Shown piece by piece: positions 1,890-11,196 of a stretch of DNA of 64,000 nt. The first letter of the stretch is position 1. Every line of letters begins with the position of its first letter. The position numbers and the translations under genes are program-made. Location: the NCBI GenBank assembly GCA_003554965.1, contig PWHR01000041.1, positions 78,378-142,377 on the forward strand, read 5' to 3'. Source of the stretch: Thermoplasmata archaeon. Its GTDB lineage: Archaea; Thermoplasmatota; Thermoplasmata; Halarchaeoplasmatales; Halarchaeoplasmataceae. The notes beneath the pieces were generated by a model. It worked only from the letters and a program-made list of their open reading frames with translations, was not told the DNA's origin and did not search any database.

Positions 1890-3137
1890 ATGTTTGGCGG
1901 CCCGATGGAGCTGACGATAGAAGAAAATAAAGGAGACTCTTTCCTTATAAACGAGGAAACCGCTTCTGAGCATTCGATAGAGGATGATGATGTTCTCTTG
2001 GGAAAAAACTCTATGAACCAGAAAGCGATCGCTGGACACGCTGAAACTTGTGACGAAATAGATAAGGAAAAGATAGGGATGCCCAGAGAAAAGTTCGAGT
2101 CTATCGGATTGGATTGTGATTTCAAAATCGAGATCCAAAAGTATAAAGAGGATCTAGTGAGCGTAAAAGAGGTCGATTTTGGTTTCGTAGATCGAAGCAG
2201 TTCAAGCGAAGATCCTCTTTCAACCGTGAAAGAGAATGAAAAGGAATTTCTGAACTTCATAAAAGAAAAGGTTTTTACTAAAAATTCTAAATTTTTTTGG
2301 AATACTCATCAACTACTAGTCTCTATAAAAAGTACCTATCCAAAACTTGGTGTGGATCAAGTAGGTGATTTCACAGACATAGAAGAATGTAATTACGCTT
2401 GGGGAGGAGGTGAACTAAAATCCTTCGACGGAGTACTATTGATCGATATGTCCGGAAGTATGGAGACCGAAGATCTAAAGATGGAAGACATAGAGTGGAT
2501 CGTTGAAAGGATAAACAGCGGTATTCAAGGTAAGATGACCTCTGGATTTTTAAGAAACCTTAAAGATAGGATGAAAATCAAAAGATCTGAAGGTGCAGCT
2601 TTCTGTGCTTTGATGTACCTTGTCCAGAAGATAGGTCGAGGTGTTGGAGATAATATTTCCATAGTACCTTTCAGTAAAGAAGCAAAACCCATTAGATTCA
2701 AAGATCAAAAATTCTTTTCTTCAAAGATCGGATCCACCAGGGAAGCTGCAGAAAACATAATCGAAACCATAAATTATTTTCCAAGAGGACAGACAAATAT
2801 ATCTGGAGCTCTTGATCAAACGATAGAGGTCATGAAAGAGTTTAACAGGGATAAGATGAAGATGATAGTGATTTTAACGGACGGAGAACCCAATCCTTCA
2901 TCTATAGACGATAGTGATAGTGTTAAGAAACTCGTAAATGAAAGGATCGCACCTAGAAGTGATGTTATCATAAACACGATAGGACTAGGAGATGAAGTGG
3001 ATCATCATCTTTTGGAAGAGATCGCCTCTGTAACGGGAGGGGAATACACTTACGTGAACAGTTTGGAAGGCCTTACACAGGCTTATTCAAGATATGCAAC
3101 AAACATCTCAATCAAAGGTACCGTGTTGCCTGACTGA
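1890..3137 (+). CDS. Cdc48N-like double-psi barrel + von Willebrand factor A protein
   Basis: This is a 415-residue soluble protein. Residues 7-100 follow the plan of the Cdc48/VAT N-terminal double-psi beta-barrel: an IEDDDVLLG segment, a hydrophobic strand, then an IGMPREKFESIGLDCD segment in place of the usual IRIDxxxRxNAGVxxGD, then a VKEVDFG strand. Residues 178-400 form a vWA domain with a complete MIDAS: D186-x-S188-x-S190, the Thr in GQTNISGAL, and the Asp in LTDGEP. It is therefore likely a metal-dependent protein-binding adaptor. The start may be the ATG at 1905, because a TATA-like AT-rich element (1867-1880) lies about 25 nt upstream of it, as expected for a leaderless mRNA. At 1890 the ggagg motif is only 3 nt away. 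The gene converges on the GCS2-like ligase with a 16-bp gap. The Cdc48N assignment is by eye; vWA is clear. Confidence 0.85.
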   Translation: MFGGPMELTIEENKGDSFLINEETASEHSIEDDDVLLGKNSMNQKAIAGHAETCDEIDKEKIGMPREKFESIGLDCDFKIEIQKYKEDLVSVKEVDFGFVDRSSSSEDPLSTVKENEKEFLNFIKEKVFTKNSKFFWNTHQLLVSIKSTYPKLGVDQVGDFTDIEECNYAWGGGELKSFDGVLLIDMSGSMETEDLKMEDIEWIVERINSGIQGKMTSGFLRNLKDRMKIKRSEGAAFCALMYLVQKIGRGVGDNISIVPFSKEAKPIRFKDQKFFSSKIGSTREAAENIIETINYFPRGQTNISGALDQTIEVMKEFNRDKMKMIVILTDGEPNPSSIDDSDSVKKLVNERIAPRSDVIINTIGLGDEVDHHLLEEIASVTGGEYTYVNSLEGLTQAYSRYATNISIKGTVLPD

Positions 3138-3153
3138 ATACTCCAATATATCT

Positions 3154-5430
3154 TCAAAGCCCTTCAAAATCGGTGATCTTTATATCACCAATATCTATCG
3201 ATTCAAACCATAGATCGGATCTTTTGTTTTGTGCTGCTTCAACCGATAATGACCTCAAGGTTTTCAGAAAACTTTCAAAATCTGAGGCTTCCTTCTTGTA
3301 GAGTATCAATTGGGAAGGTGAAATGGGTGGTGCAAGAGGAAGGTCATCATCCTTTTTCAAGCTGAAGACTCTAAAAAAGATATTGTTCAAAAAAGGTGTA
3401 TCAATGAGCCCCATCTCCTCGAAATAAGGGATTAAATTCTTTAAGATATTTTGCCAATCCTCATATATGTATTTTGATCCTCTATCAGCCAGTGATCTTA
3501 AGCATTCCGTTCTTTCTTCCCCAACACACACTCTACCTAGCAGGCCGTCTTCGATACTATTCTGCCTGTTCTTCTTAAGCACATCTGTCGGAAGAGGAGA
3601 AGATGACTTAGATATTTTTTTTCCCTTTTCAAATTTATCTTTAGTATAAAGAGCTATAGCTTGAAGGATGATCGCTAAAGAGATCCTATCTAAAGTAGTG
3701 ATCTGTGTATCGAACACCCTAATTTCGATCGTATCGTATCGCGTAAATGGATAAACATCTATCATCCGAAGAGACTCGTCTCTCCTTCCTAGCTTTTGTT
3801 CTAGGTAATGTTTTCCATCAGATCCTGATGATGGAAGTGGAGGAGGCGCTTTGAACTGTTCTTTATTCCTCTTTAATCGCATATTTGGCGAAGGATGTGT
3901 TATTACTAGATTCCCCCAATCATTGAAAGTATAATCTGGTTTTTTGCCATCTATAAAAGGAGAGTTCGATGAAATAGCTATCAGATGTGGAATCAATTCA
4001 CGATAGATATTGTATATCTCCGTCTTTAACTCATTGTTTTTGATTCCAAGATGATGGTGTTCACCGAAGGAAAGACCCTCGGAGTATTTTTCGACTGGGT
4101 TGGTGCCGACTGGGATCACATCAGCATCGATTTTTAGGTCCCTAACCACTTCTTTTATGATCCGATAAAGATGGTATGCCCACCACTCGAGTTCTTCTAG
4201 ATATTCGCAGGGAGGAGTCTGTATCTCAAGGATATTGGTTTCAAAAGTAACGTGAGAATCTTTTCCTAGAATAGAGTAATACCGATCATTATTATCTACT
4301 GAATACTTTATATGTACAGCCTCATATCCTCTGTCATCCTCCTGTATAAAAACATCGTCCTTCCACTTCCTTTGAATAAATTTTTTAGCGCTGTTCTTCA
4401 GTTCTGAAATCTTTTTCCTAGCATCGTCTAAAATCTCTTCAAATATGATCGACATCTGACTTCCTTCCAGCCATCGCCAATCCTTCCTTACTACCTGGAG
4501 TTCTATCTCTATTCCATGAGTAAATGGAAGTCGATTATGTTTTAGTGTTTTGTCACGATAAAGAGATAAAGACTCTTTCTCGATCTTTTTGTAGTCTTCA
4601 ACTCCTGTATCATCGATCATAAAATAGTGATCAGATACCTGGTTATCCTCCTCGATAAGAAATTGGTAATATCCTCCTTTATGGAATGTATTCTTCACCC
4701 CTAACTTGTCTAAGTCCACTCCACAGTTCAAGTTGATCCATTTTTTTGCTTTTAGAATCTTGTTTTTTCTATTTTCATCTATAGAAGGTGTAGAAATAAC
4801 TCGATATCGTTTTTCTTCTTTTAGATATACTCTTCTATATTCATCCACATATAACATCGGAGTAGTGCTTACTTCATCATAGTTTTTATCCTTAAAATCA
4901 ACCTTCCAACTTTCTTTTCTATCACAAATATCTCTTTTGTCCTTTTCTATCTCCCTTCTAGAAACAAATTTATAGTCTATCTCCCTATACTTGAGTATTT
5001 TATTCTTTTCTTGGATAAAAAATACGCCCACTAACCTTCCGTCTGTCATATTAGCTTTCTTTAAACCTATACTTTTTGCCTTAGGATATTCAATATTTAA
5101 TCCTTTTACAACCTTATCCAAAGGTTCGCCGATGCTGTTGAATTTTTCTACTCTTACCTCTTTTTTACTTGGCTCGTCGGGTGGAAGAGGTGGAGGATTA
5201 ATTTTTCGATCTAAATCGTCTTTTTGATCATCATTAATCAGCTTAAGTACGATCAAGAACAGAAGGATTCCCACTATCAGTGCTATCAAAATTAAATATG
5301 GGGTCATAGAGATGAGAAACATGCCTACGATAAAATAAGAAAATACCGATTTATCACGAGTTGTACTTTCTGATACTTTTCTATCTCTCAAATTCTCACT
5401 CTTACCTATTTTTTCCTTCTTAATCCGCAA
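3154..5430 (-). CDS. Membrane-anchored GCS2-type carboxylate-amine ligase with PepSY-like modules
   Basis: This is a 758-residue protein. The basic N-terminus is followed by a long hydrophobic stretch (about 29-65) broken by TP, probably a helical hairpin that leaves the rest in the cytoplasm. A PPPLPP linker (79-84) follows. Residues 95-285 look like repeated PepSY-like alpha/beta modules; the last (222-285) resembles the C-terminal part of both ubiquitin-like proteins next door. Residues 304-600 carry hallmarks of the glutamate-cysteine ligase 2/carboxylate-amine ligase fold: HGIEIELQ, GEHHHLGI, SSNSPFIDG and DTIEIRVFD. The family joins a carboxylate to an amine using ATP. A second PPPLP motif lies at 529-533, inside the catalytic region. 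The C-terminal 150 residues are helical and unrecognised. The start is TTG at 5430 or possibly TTG at 5391; no ATG precedes the membrane segment. The substrate is unknown. A stand-alone gamma-glutamyl ligase role seems unlikely given the added domains. Confidence 0.82.
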   Translation of the reverse strand: MRIKKEKIGKSENLRDRKVSESTTRDKSVFSYFIVGMFLISMTPYLILIALIVGILLFLIVLKLINDDQKDDLDRKINPPPLPPDEPSKKEVRVEKFNSIGEPLDKVVKGLNIEYPKAKSIGLKKANMTDGRLVGVFFIQEKNKILKYREIDYKFVSRREIEKDKRDICDRKESWKVDFKDKNYDEVSTTPMLYVDEYRRVYLKEEKRYRVISTPSIDENRKNKILKAKKWINLNCGVDLDKLGVKNTFHKGGYYQFLIEEDNQVSDHYFMIDDTGVEDYKKIEKESLSLYRDKTLKHNRLPFTHGIEIELQVVRKDWRWLEGSQMSIIFEEILDDARKKISELKNSAKKFIQRKWKDDVFIQEDDRGYEAVHIKYSVDNNDRYYSILGKDSHVTFETNILEIQTPPCEYLEELEWWAYHLYRIIKEVVRDLKIDADVIPVGTNPVEKYSEGLSFGEHHHLGIKNNELKTEIYNIYRELIPHLIAISSNSPFIDGKKPDYTFNDWGNLVITHPSPNMRLKRNKEQFKAPPPLPSSGSDGKHYLEQKLGRRDESLRMIDVYPFTRYDTIEIRVFDTQITTLDRISLAIILQAIALYTKDKFEKGKKISKSSSPLPTDVLKKNRQNSIEDGLLGRVCVGEERTECLRSLADRGSKYIYEDWQNILKNLIPYFEEMGLIDTPFLNNIFFRVFSLKKDDDLPLAPPISPSQLILYKKEASDFESFLKTLRSLSVEAAQNKRSDLWFESIDIGDIKITDFEGL

Positions 5431-5459: not shown

Positions 5460-6020
5460 ATGCTATTCGATCCGGTATCGAAAAGTATTGAGATGGAAGA
5501 GAAAATCATGGTAGCGATAGTGACGATCCTAAATTCAGATAAGGAAGAAAGTATACATATGACTCTAGAACCAGAAGAAACCTTCAAGGAGATCAAGGAG
5601 AAATGTGAGGACTATTGGCTTCTTGATGATAATCCTAAAAAAGGAGAATATATTCTTGTGAAAGGGAATCGAATTTTAAATCCCGAGGAATTAGTGATCT
5701 CATTTGGAATACAAGACGGAGACGTTCTAAAATTCGTTAGATCTAGTGAGTTTAACAGTAAAGAACAAGTAGAAAAATATGAGGAAGGATTAAAATTAGA
5801 TAAAACTAATTTAATTGAGGTGTGCGAGGAGTGGTTAAAGAAAAACATCGGATTAAAACCCGAAAAACTTGAGGTTGTCGACAAGGACGATCCTGAAAAT
5901 GAAAGATATAGGGAACTAACTTTGGTCTTCAAAAAAACAGATACGGATGAATTTTTTACTTTAGAAATCAAGGATGGAAAGGTGAAAAATTACATGCCTG
6001 TAAGATACAAACAGGATTGA
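5460..6020 (+). CDS. Ubiquitin-like beta-grasp + PepSY-like protein (paralogue 1)
   Basis: This is a 186-residue, acidic, soluble protein. From Met17 the sequence runs in register with ubiquitin: strand, turn, the IHMTLEPEET strand (compare ITLEVEPSDT), the helix FKEIKEKCED, a LVKGNRIL strand, then ISFGIQDGDVLKFV (compare LSDYNIQKESTLHLVL). A helical linker leads to a second module (about 115-182) with helix EEWLKKNIGL followed by strands. That part resembles a PepSY-like fold and the matching region of the next gene and of the ligase. There is no terminal Gly-Gly; the protein ends in RYKQD. The start at 5460 is the longest choice. ATG 5493 or 5508 fits better with the promoter position, and 5508 aligns with Met1 of ubiquitin. 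The fold call rests on pattern matching by eye. Confidence 0.72.
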   Translation: MLFDPVSKSIEMEEKIMVAIVTILNSDKEESIHMTLEPEETFKEIKEKCEDYWLLDDNPKKGEYILVKGNRILNPEELVISFGIQDGDVLKFVRSSEFNSKEQVEKYEEGLKLDKTNLIEVCEEWLKKNIGLKPEKLEVVDKDDPENERYRELTLVFKKTDTDEFFTLEIKDGKVKNYMPVRYKQD

Positions 6021-6024
6021 TAAT

Positions 6025-6534
6025 GTGGGAAAGAAAATCTTTATGAGGGATCAGAATATAAAAAAAACTGCAGTCATCTATCCTGAGTTTGGTAATAAAA
6101 ATTCTATAAAAAAAATAAAAAGAAGTTTGAAAAACTTTTGGGGATACGAAAATCCCGAAAAACTATGTCTTTTTTATCAGGATGTAGAATTGACTGAAGG
6201 ATATTCTTTAGATACATATGGTATTGAAGAGTTCGATCTTTTGGTTTTGACCCATGAAGATGATCCCGGGTTGAATTCTAATGGAGGAAAAGAGACAAAA
6301 GACCGGGAGATTATTTTAAAATCCAAAGAATGGCTGGATAAAAATATAGGTGTCGAGACCCAGAATATAGAGTTGACTGAGTTCTCACGCTCTGGGAACG
6401 ATGAGAAAAAGGTTATATTTGAGGATAGAGAGGGCAAATCAATCTTCAAATTGTCTTTTTTTGATAACAAGATAAAAGAATATGAGTATGATGTACTCGA
6501 AAAGGATGTAAAGAAGGAGGAATCTTATAGGTGA
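6025..6534 (+). CDS. Ubiquitin-like beta-grasp + PepSY-like protein (paralogue 2)
   Basis: This 169-residue protein is a paralogue of the preceding gene. The segment NSIKKIKRSLKNFWGYENP aligns with TFKEIKEKCEDYWLLDDNP, and LDTYGIEEFDLLVLTHED aligns with ISFGIQDGDVLKFVRSSE. Both end the beta-grasp with the ubiquitin-type last helix-turn-strand. A short linker containing a Gly-Gly pair (residues 87-88) follows. Then comes a PepSY-like module, about 93-160, with KEWLDKNIGV and a KLSFFDNKIKEYEYDV strand pair. The start is GTG at 6025: agga lies 8 nt upstream, and it is 4 nt after the previous stop. An internal ATG at 6043 is the alternative. It is part of a three-gene operon with the amidohydrolase. 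Confidence 0.7.
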   Translation: MGKKIFMRDQNIKKTAVIYPEFGNKNSIKKIKRSLKNFWGYENPEKLCLFYQDVELTEGYSLDTYGIEEFDLLVLTHEDDPGLNSNGGKETKDREIILKSKEWLDKNIGVETQNIELTEFSRSGNDEKKVIFEDREGKSIFKLSFFDNKIKEYEYDVLEKDVKKEESYR

Positions 6535-6538
6535 AAAT

Positions 6539-7660
6539 ATGCTTCGCATTATCGATAATGAGACAAATACGGGAAGGATCTTTTTTGTAAATGACTCACA
6601 CCATCATATAGGGGAAGAGGTCGATGGAAATGAAAACGTTCCTATCGGGGAAAATGGAAGTTATGATTTTTCAAAACGATTGGAAGAAGATATAAAAGAG
6701 AGTTTTAAAAACTGTGCAAATTCAAGATATGAGCCCCCTCCAGAAAACCTCATAATAGAGAGGAATGGTTCTGGTACAGCAAGAGATGATCATCCCCATG
6801 GTATCTTCGATCAGATAGTTGTTTTTCCGATGAAGGATAAATTTAGAGATGAGGGTGAAGTCACCTTTTCTAGGTCCAATAAAAACATCTCTCGATGGGT
6901 CAACGCCGATTACCATAGGAGAAGGTTGATAGGATTTGGAAGAGTAGACCCAGGAGATATAGAAGGAGCTAGGAAAGAGATCAAAAAATTCCCTAACAAG
7001 TACGGTTTGACAGGTTTGAAAATACATCCGGATTCAGAAAGGTTCAAATTGGGTTCAAATGAAGTAATACAACTCTACGTCGACTGTGCTAGGATGGGAT
7101 TGCCGATAATATTCCATACCGGGTATCCCTCAGACGTTAAGGATATACACGAGGGGGTAAACAAAACCATCTCACTCCTGGTTGAAAATGGAATGGAAGA
7201 GCTGGTGAGTCAATTGAACGTCATCATCGGACACTGCAGTTATGAGGAAGAAGAAGTGTTTAGATATCTGAGCCATCCTTGTATATACGGAGAGATGTCA
7301 ACGCTCAGTCAAGGAGAGAGCTTCCTAAATTCGGCTAGAAAAAATATCAGGCTGTCCGATTTTACGAATAATACGTTAAATTATTTCAAAAAGGATGTAA
7401 GAGAAACTCTAAAAGATAAATTTTGGAAGATCTTCCAGGTGAATAGTCACTGGTCAAGCAAAATCATGATAGGAACCGATCATCCCTTTTTGCCCAAAGA
7501 CAACATAACTAAATTATTTAATGCGATTTTTTGCTCTGATATTTCATCAGATCTGGATCCGTGGAGCATACAGAATATACTCGGGAATAACTTAGTAAAT
7601 TTACTCACTCCTAATGTCGGTGTACATGTATCAACGTTCCAATCAGATCATAGTAATTAG
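6539..7660 (+). CDS. Metal-dependent amidohydrolase-superfamily TIM-barrel protein
   Basis: This is a 373-residue protein with metal-ligand positions of the amidohydrolase superfamily (amidohydrolase_2 type): DSHHHIG near the N-terminus (H21-x-H23), GLKIHP, IFHTGYPS (His after strand 5), IIGHCSY (His after strand 6) and IGTDHPF (Asp after strand 8). The family hydrolyses amides, lactones or esters, and some members are decarboxylases. The ATG has a good aggtg Shine-Dalgarno 5 nt upstream that overlaps the stop of the upstream ubiquitin-like gene, so translation is likely coupled. In this context an amide- or isopeptide-cleaving role opposite the ligase is an attractive inference but is not shown. 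The region between the HxH and GLKIHP is longer than usual. It converges with the giant surface protein gene, 8 bp apart. Confidence 0.8.
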   Translation: MLRIIDNETNTGRIFFVNDSHHHIGEEVDGNENVPIGENGSYDFSKRLEEDIKESFKNCANSRYEPPPENLIIERNGSGTARDDHPHGIFDQIVVFPMKDKFRDEGEVTFSRSNKNISRWVNADYHRRRLIGFGRVDPGDIEGARKEIKKFPNKYGLTGLKIHPDSERFKLGSNEVIQLYVDCARMGLPIIFHTGYPSDVKDIHEGVNKTISLLVENGMEELVSQLNVIIGHCSYEEEEVFRYLSHPCIYGEMSTLSQGESFLNSARKNIRLSDFTNNTLNYFKKDVRETLKDKFWKIFQVNSHWSSKIMIGTDHPFLPKDNITKLFNAIFCSDISSDLDPWSIQNILGNNLVNLLTPNVGVHVSTFQSDHSN

Positions 7661-7668
7661 TGGAGTTC

Positions 7669-10600
7669 TTATGGACCTGATAGGTCTATCTCTTCCTTCT
7701 CCTCTTCCGACAAATCGTACATCGACTCATCCTGCTCTGACTCTTCTACTTCATAGAATTCATCTTCATCGAATTCTTCTTCTGTTTCAGTATCTATCTC
7801 CTCATAGCTTTCAGTAGATCCTTTAGAGATGAACATCAAGGCTAGAGCTATTATAATGATAAATACTATACCTATGAGTATGAAAACCATCGGTACACTC
7901 AAAAATCCTTCCTCTTTCTCCTCAACCGTCAATTTCATACTCTCATCCGCATCCTCTATAACTAGATTGTACTCATCCGCATCCTCTATAGTATGAGTGA
8001 CTGTTATAGTCTCGGCTTTACCGGGCTCTATCTCTAACGAATCACTATCTATAGTTTCACCGTCGAGAGTGATCTCTGCTGTATACTCGCCTTCAACTTC
8101 GCCTTTATTTTCCACTTCCACCTCGATCTCGAACTCTTCATACTCTTCAGGCTCTTCCGGATCTATTTCGATACTCAAAACTTCGAACTCAGGTTCTTCT
8201 AGTTGCCCCCCGACCGTCACTAAAACGGCGTCGGAAGTCTCCTGTTCATAAGACGCCTTCACTTCATACTCACCGGGCTGTTCTTCTTCAAATGTACCTT
8301 CTTCTGAAGCATTTGACCATGTGAATTCTCCATCATCATCCGAGATCAAATTCTCGTACTCGTCGTAAGCCTCGGCTGAGAACTCTATCGATCCTCCTAC
8401 TGTTACATTTTGATCCTCTTCAGGCTCTATCTCCACTGTAGATACCTCCGACGGCTCTACTGTCACTATCGTTAGTTCAGATCCAACATCCTCGTATTCT
8501 GCTGTAACTTGGTACTCTCCCGCTTCCGTCTCTTCAAAGGTGCCTAAGGAGGCGTTCTGCCAAGTGAAATCTTTCAAATCGTCAGTTATCAGATTACCAT
8601 ACTCGTCAGATGACTCTGCATTGAACTCTATCGGCTCTCCAGCCTCTACCGTCTCCCCTTCCTCGGTTATCTCTACCGTGTCTACACCTGATGGTTCGAC
8701 CTCGATCGTGATCGTATCAGATTCAATCTCTCCATGAGAAGCTTTCACTTCGTGATCCCCTGCTTCGGTTTCATCGAAAACACCATCGTCAGCCCCAGTC
8801 CAATCAAAATCTGTTTCATCGTCCGTGACGGTGTTGCCATACTCGTCTGAAGCTTCCGCATCTATATCCACTGTTTTACCCGCTTCTATGGTTTTATATT
8901 CCGAGTCGATCTCTATATCAACGGAATCAACATCTGTTGGCTCGACTTTCAGGGTAGCGGTGTCCTCCATTCCTTCATACCCCCCAGTTATATTCCATTC
9001 TCCTGCAGTATAAGGTGTTATCTCGTTATCATTCCAACTAGCGTCATCGATGTCATCGTCCCACTCGACATCATCCGTTACATCATCTCTCTCATTACGA
9101 TATTCGTCGTAAGCGGTAGCGTTAAACTCTTGTGCTTCACCAGCCTCAACCACTGGATCTGTTGGCTCGACTTCGATGTGATCTGTATCAGCTGTTTTGA
9201 CGGTGAATTTCGTCGTCTCCGCGTCATCATCTTCTTCAACATTATCATCAGACCTGTCTATCGAGAATTCTAGTTTGTAATCGTCATCGGCCTCTTCGAT
9301 TATCAGTTCATCAAAAGTAGCTAAACCATCCTCTTCTGTTTCTACCTCAGTTGTACTATAATCTGTTAAATCTCCTGCACCATCTATCGCCTCAACACTT
9401 ACTTCAACATCTTTCACCGTATTATTTTCATCATCCGTTACGAGAGCCTTTGGGTAATCTCCATCGTTACCTGTAAGGGTCTGGCCAGCACGTGTATCTT
9501 TGGGTTCTGTTTCCACTTTTACCGAGGTAGCATCACCTGGCTGGACTTCGACCTTCCCGGTAAAATTATCATCTCCCTCTGCATCTACAGTTACATTATA
9601 GGTTCCGAGTTCGGTTTCAGAATGGATGAAAGTGATCTTATCTGATTCCCCATAAGATAGGTCATCAATCGTTTTTGTTTCTTCCCGTTTTTCATCGATT
9701 TCAAAGGTTAATTCTACGGTTTCATCCACATTACCTGTATTTTTGACATAACCTTTTACCTCAAAATCCTCTCCTGCATCCACGTGATCAGGAACTATAT
9801 CCCAATCGATCAACTCAAAGTCAGTTTCTGCTTCCACTGGATTCTCATCCCAGCTCAGGAACGGATAATCCCATCCATCAACGATGTTCCAAGGCTCAGA
9901 ATCGTCCACCTCTTCTGCTTCAACTCGGGCTATATCCCAAGGATGATCGAGATCTGTATCTGTATAGGTCGAATAACTATACATCTCAGTAGTGTTTTTA
10001 GGTATACCGTCTCCTCCGCACTCTTTTTGGTCCGTTGTTTCATTGTCGAAAAAGGAATCTATCTCATTACCATTCATGATGTCTGATTCCCCTACTAATC
10101 CACCTACCTTCGTTTCTCCTTCTACTTCTCCTATTGCGTACGAGTTCTCTATTGTATCGCTATTACTGCCCGCTAATCCGCCTACATTCTCTGATTCATC
10201 TGATTCACCCGTCACATTTACCTCTGCATGCGACTCTGTTATTTTACCGTCATTCTCTCCTACTAATCCACCTACTTCCGTCTCTCCTTCTACTTCTCCT
10301 TTCGCAGACGAGTCCTCTATTGTATCGCTATTACTACCTACTAGTCCTCCTACATTCTCTGATTCACCTGTCACATTTACCTCTGCATGCGACTCTGTTA
10401 TTTTACCGTCATTCTCTCCTACTAATCCACCTACTTCCGTCTCTCCTTCTACTTCTCCTATTGCATACGAGTTCTCTATTGTTTCGCTATTACTGCCCGC
10501 TAATCCGCCTACATTCTCTGATTCATCTGATTCACCTGTCACATTTACCTCTGCATACGACTCTGTTATCGTCCCACCTGTATCTCCTACTAATCCACCT

Positions 10601-11196
10601 ATGTTCGTGTTACCCTTAACATCTCCTGTCGAATATGAATTATTTACGACACCATCAAGTTGTCCCCCTGTCAGTATGCCTACTCGTTCTTTTCCTTCTA
10701 CATTTGCTTCAATAATCATCAGATTGCTGATTTTTGAATCATCAGTAAATCCAAATAATCCTACAAAATCTTTATCTGATCTATTGATGTACAAATCTCT
10801 TATCTGCGAGTTATTACCATCAAAAATTCCTTGAAATTTACTATCACTGTTACCAATCGGTTCCCATCCATTTTCACTTTCATTCACATACTCATCGTAC
10901 CCATCAGTAGTCTCATTCAAGTCAGCATTCAATGTAAAATTCTGATCCAAGTGCTCTCTTACATTGTTCAGATGAGTCCAATTCTCGATCTCGTAGGGTT
11001 CCTCTTCAGTACCCTCTCCTCCAGCAAATTCATCGTCACCATCGATCCTGATCGGGCTGATCTCCTCGTATTCATCTCCCGACTCCCTGAACTCTTCTTC
11101 GACTCCTATCCCATTAGCCTCTACAAAATTTACACTTATTACACTCGCTAGAAGCATTATTGCAATACCGACTATCCATATCTTATGCTTGCTCAT
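7669..11196 (-). CDS. Giant surface protein: GLUG repeats, CARDB/Ig-like repeats, C-terminal TM anchor
   Basis: This is a 1175-residue, very acidic protein. A signal peptide (about 5-27) is followed by a region with GLUG-type repeats (about 130-380; NVGGLVGxN and xxENSYAxGEV units). A CARDB-like domain starts at about 455. Next come five or more Ig-like/invasin-like repeats of about 90 residues with the signature AxDEYGNxxTDD...FxWxxA...GxFxETEAGEYxVxA. A final beta domain, a transmembrane helix (about 1105-1127) and an acidic cytoplasmic tail of about 48 residues complete it. It is probably a cell-surface adhesin or S-layer-associated stalk. The start is the ATG with ggtg 8-9 nt upstream. 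The Ig-like repeat type is shared with the upstream LRR gene, so the two are related by domain shuffling. Confidence 0.85.
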   Translation of the reverse strand: MSKHKIWIVGIAIMLLASVISVNFVEANGIGVEEEFRESGDEYEEISPIRIDGDDEFAGGEGTEEEPYEIENWTHLNNVREHLDQNFTLNADLNETTDGYDEYVNESENGWEPIGNSDSKFQGIFDGNNSQIRDLYINRSDKDFVGLFGFTDDSKISNLMIIEANVEGKERVGILTGGQLDGVVNNSYSTGDVKGNTNIGGLVGDTGGTITESYAEVNVTGESDESENVGGLAGSNSETIENSYAIGEVEGETEVGGLVGENDGKITESHAEVNVTGESENVGGLVGSNSDTIEDSSAKGEVEGETEVGGLVGENDGKITESHAEVNVTGESDESENVGGLAGSNSDTIENSYAIGEVEGETKVGGLVGESDIMNGNEIDSFFDNETTDQKECGGDGIPKNTTEMYSYSTYTDTDLDHPWDIARVEAEEVDDSEPWNIVDGWDYPFLSWDENPVEAETDFELIDWDIVPDHVDAGEDFEVKGYVKNTGNVDETVELTFEIDEKREETKTIDDLSYGESDKITFIHSETELGTYNVTVDAEGDDNFTGKVEVQPGDATSVKVETEPKDTRAGQTLTGNDGDYPKALVTDDENNTVKDVEVSVEAIDGAGDLTDYSTTEVETEEDGLATFDELIIEEADDDYKLEFSIDRSDDNVEEDDDAETTKFTVKTADTDHIEVEPTDPVVEAGEAQEFNATAYDEYRNERDDVTDDVEWDDDIDDASWNDNEITPYTAGEWNITGGYEGMEDTATLKVEPTDVDSVDIEIDSEYKTIEAGKTVDIDAEASDEYGNTVTDDETDFDWTGADDGVFDETEAGDHEVKASHGEIESDTITIEVEPSGVDTVEITEEGETVEAGEPIEFNAESSDEYGNLITDDLKDFTWQNASLGTFEETEAGEYQVTAEYEDVGSELTIVTVEPSEVSTVEIEPEEDQNVTVGGSIEFSAEAYDEYENLISDDDGEFTWSNASEEGTFEEEQPGEYEVKASYEQETSDAVLVTVGGQLEEPEFEVLSIEIDPEEPEEYEEFEIEVEVENKGEVEGEYTAEITLDGETIDSDSLEIEPGKAETITVTHTIEDADEYNLVIEDADESMKLTVEEKEEGFLSVPMVFILIGIVFIIIIALALMFISKGSTESYEEIDTETEEEFDEDEFYEVEESEQDESMYDLSEEEKEEIDLSGP
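10085..10615 (-). repeat. Near-identical tandem coding repeats (GLUG units)
   Basis: Three copies of a roughly 160-180 bp unit encode NVGGLxGSNSxTIExSxAxGEVEGETxVGGLVGE. They are almost identical at the DNA level; for example ctactaatccacctacttccgt recurs. The high nucleotide identity points to recent duplication or gene conversion inside the surface protein. Confidence 0.8.

Follow-up and report, generated by a model that had tools for sequence, protein, structure and literature searches.

A double-psi beta-barrel (DPBB) of the Cdc48 N-domain kind is fused in the window (the whole stretch of 64,000 nucleotides analysed here) to a vWA domain rather than to an AAA+ ring, and the gene for this protein lies in a cassette of five that runs DPBB-vWA, ligase, Ubl1, Ubl2, amidohydrolase; two other genomes of the genus (G002 and G001) have all five genes in this order and on corresponding strands. 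The initial annotation had proposed such a fusion, and it was borne out by profile comparison and Foldseek for the barrel and by Pfam for the vWA domain. Our preferred reading, plausible though somewhat short of probable, is that the DPBB-vWA protein is soluble and cytoplasmic and acts as the adaptor, or scaffold, of a module for reversible amide ligation, to which the ubiquitin-like proteins (Ubls) were added as partners in this genus. The gene set suggests a docking and modification system that has gone undescribed; a literature search of incomplete coverage, in which absence is not proof, returned no account of these genes in combination. The features are collected in Table 1.

Table 1. Features of the cassette and its flank (positions in the window).
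Feature	Position	Strand	Remarks
DPBB-vWA protein, 410 aa	1905..3137	+	orthologues 60-70% identical in three congeners; 12-member family
N-terminal DPBB (Cdc48 Nn-like), residues 1-96	1905..2192	+	
alpha/beta linker, residues 97-170	2193..2414	+	homologous in all 12 proteins of the family; distinct from the Cdc48 Nc barrel
vWA domain, residues 171-405	2415..3119	+	Pfam VWA 3e-13
MIDAS motif D181-x-S183-x-S185	2445..2459	+	plus T297 (2793-2795) and D326 (2880-2882)
GCS2/YbdK-type carboxylate-amine ligase	3154..5430	-	Pfam GCS2 7.1e-7; NCBIfam YbdK family 7.5e-15; PDB YbdK 7.9e-13
Ligase: N-terminal hydrophobic anchor	about 5236-5292	-	hydrophobicity
Ligase: KWL-type domain	about 4588-4773	-	
Ligase: catalytic domain	about 3166-4536	-	GhExE 'GIEIE', HHH and ExR conserved
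Ubl1: ubiquitin-like domain (from about 5508) and C-terminal KWLxxNIG-type domain	5460..6020	+	Pfam ubiquitin 8.4e-4; no GG tail
Ubl2: second ubiquitin-like protein	6025..6534	+	same two-domain build
Amidohydrolase (Amidohydro_2 TIM barrel)	6539..7660	+	Pfam 9.3e-9
GLUG/CARDB surface protein, C-terminal TM and acidic tail ending EIDLSGP	7669..11196	-	flanking, possibly linked

The open reading frame was taken to start at position 1905, because the orthologues align from the Met there and do not use the upstream Met at 1890. Full-length orthologues were present in three of the four other genomes of the genus, with 43-56% identity in the N-terminal part versus 69-77% in the vWA part. Together with two more distant sets of full-length relatives within the class they make up the family of 12; outside the class, the protein was matched at the vWA level only. 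Among named sequences, the closest relatives are from Thermoplasmata MAGs, of which two derive from sediment samples called 'Sed10' and one bears the label GSL, and the host of the gene set is a salt-lake archaeon. The vWA domain scored above the Pfam cut-off and was the sole domain found in the protein by the Pfam search, with no AAA+ D1 or D2. All five MIDAS residues (D181, S183, S185, T297 and D326) were invariant in 12 of the 12 proteins, and metal-dependent ligand binding would therefore be expected. The earlier statement that neither the protein nor its neighbours include an ATPase also stood: no AAA+ gene occurs within the cassette, and the contig's nearest gene for a CDC48_N ATPase lies at a distance of about 29 kb. 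Nor does a MoxR gene adjoin the vWA gene, the MoxR genes of this genome all being on other contigs. A tree of vWA domains, with long branches placed together and the domain mis-cut in one or two rows, was set aside. Two short stand-alone CDC48_N-like proteins of 93 and 103 aa, without AAA+ domains, are encoded elsewhere in the window genome (L006:7557-7838 and L007:6652-6963), one of the genes being followed closely by a TrkA-like gene. The window's first gene is closely preceded by one for a TPR protein whose C-terminal part has consecutive zinc-finger repeats of the CxxC(x)G type (L005:15278-16450, ending near window position 72).

The identity of the N-terminal barrel was examined by structure prediction and by profile comparison. 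AF2, given four sequences, predicted residues 1-96 as two b-a-b-b halves; the models were of middling confidence (pLDDT 54 for the full length, and 63), and the full-length model served only for the order of elements and for rough matches. When a 102-aa model of the N domain was submitted to Foldseek, p97/Cdc48 N domains and AMP phosphorylase filled nearly all of the best 50 rows, a ranking to which the over-representation of p97 in the PDB contributes a caveat. The best match had an E of 2.3e-3 and a TM of 0.62 over about 72 columns, with p97/Cdc48 Nn at the top. A profile of the 12 N domains matched, among PDB sequences, designed DPBBs (E 3.3e-6), archaeal AMP phosphorylase (6.3e-5), yeast Cdc48 (1.8e-3) and the DPBB of TMAO reductase (1.9e-3), with the non-DPBB acyl carrier protein among its weaker rows. 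Profile-profile scores were 39.5 for VAT-N, 43.7 for Molydop and 42.3 for AMP phosphorylase, against column-shuffle maxima of 16.8 (40 shuffles), 13.4 and 16.6, respectively. Pfam CDC48_N matched the window protein alone at E 0.03-0.05 (about 14-15 bits, below the cut-off of 35.1), which was too weak to serve as a stand-alone basis for identity, and several relatives in the family matched Pfam Molydop_binding instead (best E 2e-4). That the N-terminal domain folds as a DPBB is thus well supported. The Cdc48/VAT N identity proposed at first holds at the level of the fold (DPBB, Nn) and not as a specific assignment, since the scores for the AMP-phosphorylase and Mo-bis-PGD barrels are about equal; Cdc48 ties with the other two by sequence and is the best of the three by predicted structure.

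The resemblance to the N domain of Cdc48, p97 and VAT covers the Nn fold, about 80 aligned residues and the N-terminal position, and goes no further. The four-stranded Nc barrel that should follow Nn is absent; the matches stop at residue 80-93, after which a predicted helix and strands lead into the vWA domain, where Cdc48 has its AAA+ rings. In p97 the UBX site sits between Nn and Nc. Because the Nc half is absent, the cleft through which Cdc48 receives ubiquitin cofactors is missing here. Archaeal AMP phosphorylase carries an N-terminal barrel of comparable profile similarity, joined to a phosphorylase and not to a vWA domain. A Cdc48-type N barrel has thus been parted from its ATPase, and in several archaeal lineages it sits on a putative metal-dependent docking domain.

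The presence of ubiquitin-like genes nearby was confirmed. The Ubl profile matched ubiquitin and RAD23 in the PDB, and both Ubl domains are therefore true members of the ubiquitin family. The closest relatives of the Ubl1 domain in the class are encoded beside E2, E1 and JAMM, and in several of these relatives GG stands at or close to the C-terminus; the window Ubls differ from them in having no GG tail, and a search of five genomes of this genus (G000-G004) gave no E2 match. In Ubl1 and Ubl2 the Ubl domain is not C-terminal and the tails are unconserved, with no constant Glu, Gln or Gly-Gly. With a second domain, such tails and no E2 match in the genus, conjugation in the manner of ubiquitin is unlikely. 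The KWL-type C-terminal domain of the Ubls recurs in the ligase, with i-Evalues of 5.2e-9 (L038) and 1.4e-5 (window) at a nominal search space of 1000. In G029 a Ubl with its KWL-type domain is fused N-terminally to a vWA domain, in the place of the DPBB (L040:8804-10111), and this vWA domain is 33.6% identical to that of the window protein (E 2.6e-41). We regard this fusion as the strongest sign that Ubl and vWA may act together. Compact operons in several class genomes (L080-L087) combine the gene for a Ubl that has GG at or close to its end with those for an E2, an E1-like ThiF protein and a JAMM protease.

The remaining two enzymes of the cassette have intact candidate active sites. The window ligase has the GhExE motif and its companion residues, as do GCS2/YbdK ligases and PafA, GhExE being the signature named for GCS2 and PafA (PMC2588565); the ligases of family f4 carry AhExE. 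It differs from these enzymes in its membrane anchor, its KWL-type domain, the company of an amidohydrolase and a Ubl without a Pup-type tail. In the amidohydrolase, the candidate metal ligands H21, H23, H193, H232 and D314, plus K161, are invariant. A scan for promoters and terminators and a search for repeats gave nothing above chance, and a defence-system reading was dropped as PADLOC returned no match. The codon pattern of the EIDLSGP tail of the flanking surface protein occurs once in the window genome (G000) and once in G002 (L037:2-397), beside the cassette both times; the surface protein beside the G001 cassette lacks this tail.

We then compared the distribution of the genes across genomes. 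Four of the cassette genes were found in the same order in G003 before the contig ends, and G004 (83% complete) gave no match to the vWA, Ubl1 or ligase proteins, so the cassette may be accessory. Among 400 genomes of the class, DPBB-vWA and GCS2 occurred together in 10, DPBB-vWA alone in two and the ligase alone in two; co-occurrence in 10 of the 14 genomes holding either gives a Fisher p of 1.7e-16, uncorrected for kinship, and the independent lineages behind it are few (f1, f4 and f15, with f22 split and f11 having the vWA protein only). The GCS2 and amidohydrolase genes were adjacent in f4, f15 and f22 genomes wherever the contig permitted a view, and in the same cassette in f1. In f15 (G029 and G039) the order is ligase, hydrolase, DPBB-vWA, the last directly downstream at L075 and L106; in f4 the ligase-hydrolase pair and the DPBB-vWA gene occupy separate places of the same genomes, and no Ubl1 relative was found there at E 1e-3. 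These two families thus have the DPBB-vWA protein with the ligase-hydrolase pair, mostly without Ubl genes. The association of the DPBB-vWA protein with the pair is wider, and probably older, than that with the Ubls, and for this reason we favour a scaffold of an amide-ligation module in which the Ubls, probably not conjugable in the conventional way, are partners in some lineages.

The domains, the intact active-site and MIDAS residues, the gene order, the co-occurrence, the Ubl-vWA fusion and the common KWL-type domain are read directly from the sequences, and from them we infer each binding event and each reaction, with its substrate, in the following scheme. The GCS2-type ligase, membrane-anchored in most members of the genus, would join a carboxylate to an amine using ATP, and the amidohydrolase would reverse the ligation or trim the product. 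The DPBB-vWA protein would hold enzyme and target together, its vWA domain clamping an acidic residue of a partner via the MIDAS metal and its DPBB docking on another component. In this genus the Ubls would be added partners, most likely MIDAS ligands as the Ubl domains of Rsa4 and Ytm1 are for Rea1, and the KWL-type domain common to Ubls and ligase would link those two. Crystallography of Rea1 has shown how its MIDAS binds the Ubl domains of Rsa4 and Ytm1, the contact being made by the metal and a Ubl glutamate (PMC6624252; also cited in PMC6509490). The cassette resembles that system in a MIDAS-competent vWA domain and putative ubiquitin-like partners; it differs in having no AAA+ motor and no evident ribosome-assembly context. 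Given this precedent and a barrel without Nc, the MIDAS appears the better candidate for the Ubl site, and docking there rather than on the barrel is more likely. If the adaptor reading is true, the cassette would encode ubiquitin-like docking that involves neither E1 nor E2 nor an AAA+ motor. Against it, the ligase and vWA genes are convergent and so not one transcript, the vWA gene does not adjoin the ligase pair in f4, and G105 and G074 (74-85% complete) have a DPBB-vWA protein with zinc ribbons near secretion-type T2SSE genes, with no ligase found. The latter proteins carry two C-terminal zinc ribbons at loci with T2SSE ATPases (L070:8997-10460 and L071:8258-9703), and on the contig of this gene G105 also has T2SSF, a HerA-like ATPase and a Ubl protein. 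An extended form of the adaptor reading, which we consider quite improbable as a whole, is archaeal protein modification in which the membrane-bound ligase and the amidohydrolase write and erase amide links on a protein, perhaps on the Glu-rich tail that the flanking surface protein has in the cytoplasm, the adaptor chooses the target, the Ubls are MIDAS ligands and not conjugated tags, and the build may share ancestry with Iml1/DEPDC5.

Alternatively, the genes may form a metabolic operon, in which a small molecule, an amide or a gamma-glutamyl compound, is formed by the ligase and cleaved by the amidohydrolase, and the DPBB-vWA protein helps in assembly or metal loading, as vWA partners do in systems of the chelatase and CoxE types. 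In agreement with this alternative, YbdK/GCS2 enzymes have small molecules as substrates, the f4 genomes have the vWA gene at a distance from the ligase-hydrolase pair, and no conjugatable protein tail is conserved; however, the usual partner of such vWA helpers is an AAA+ ATPase of the MoxR type, whose genes are on other contigs here, and a membrane anchor and Ubl partners would be odd for a soluble metabolic pathway. We judge a metabolic operon rather unlikely.

The initial annotation had instead expected the barrel to contact the Ubls, which would make the DPBB itself the receptor for both, as the N domain of p97/Cdc48 is for UBX and ubiquitin-bound cofactors. The fold match to p97-N, including UBX complexes, and the Ubl genes in the cassette are in keeping with this. 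With only Nn present, the barrel lacks the Nc side of the UBX site; DPBBs without any binding to ubiquitin resemble it just as closely; in f4 genomes the DPBB-vWA protein and the ligase-hydrolase pair are retained, with no Ubl1 relative found; and the structurally documented contact between a vWA domain and a Ubl goes via the MIDAS metal (PMC6624252). A barrel receptor is therefore unlikely.

A Pup-like conjugation, with the GCS2 ligase attaching the Ubls to targets and the amidohydrolase removing them, could be imagined from the ligase and Ubl genes lying together, from the view that PafA is GCS2-derived and from the membrane segment of some Pup ligases (PMC2588565). Pupylation uses a partner with a conserved C-terminal Glu or Gln, whereas the Ubl tails here vary and do not follow the Ubl domain directly, and f4 and f15 have the ligase-hydrolase pair with no separate Ubl proteins found; we hold this scheme to be very improbable.

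The order DPBB then vWA is not unique, because Iml1/DEPDC5 (GATOR1/SEACIT) has an NTD like Sec18/NSF followed by a SABA domain like Sec23 (PMC8534245). That the window protein corresponds in prokaryotes to Iml1/DEPDC5 and serves as a scaffold that controls a small GTPase at the membrane is still less probable: a weak full-length profile match to DEPDC5 (E 0.013, the DPBB only), a Foldseek match to 7t3b_A (E 1e-5 over 426 columns, from a weak model) and a NOG1-type GTPase gene that immediately precedes the ligase gene in the two f15 genomes (L075:3932-4891 and L106:6907-8154) point that way, yet the far smaller protein ends after the vWA domain without SHEN, DEP or CTD domains, the sequence likeness is limited to the DPBB, and the gene company is other, with no GTPase gene in the window cassette. 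The tie to Iml1/DEPDC5 is a lead, not membership, and with the domain order in common it becomes testable whether that eukaryotic architecture arose in archaea. In both f15 genomes, two short zinc-ribbon-like proteins are encoded after the DPBB-vWA gene.
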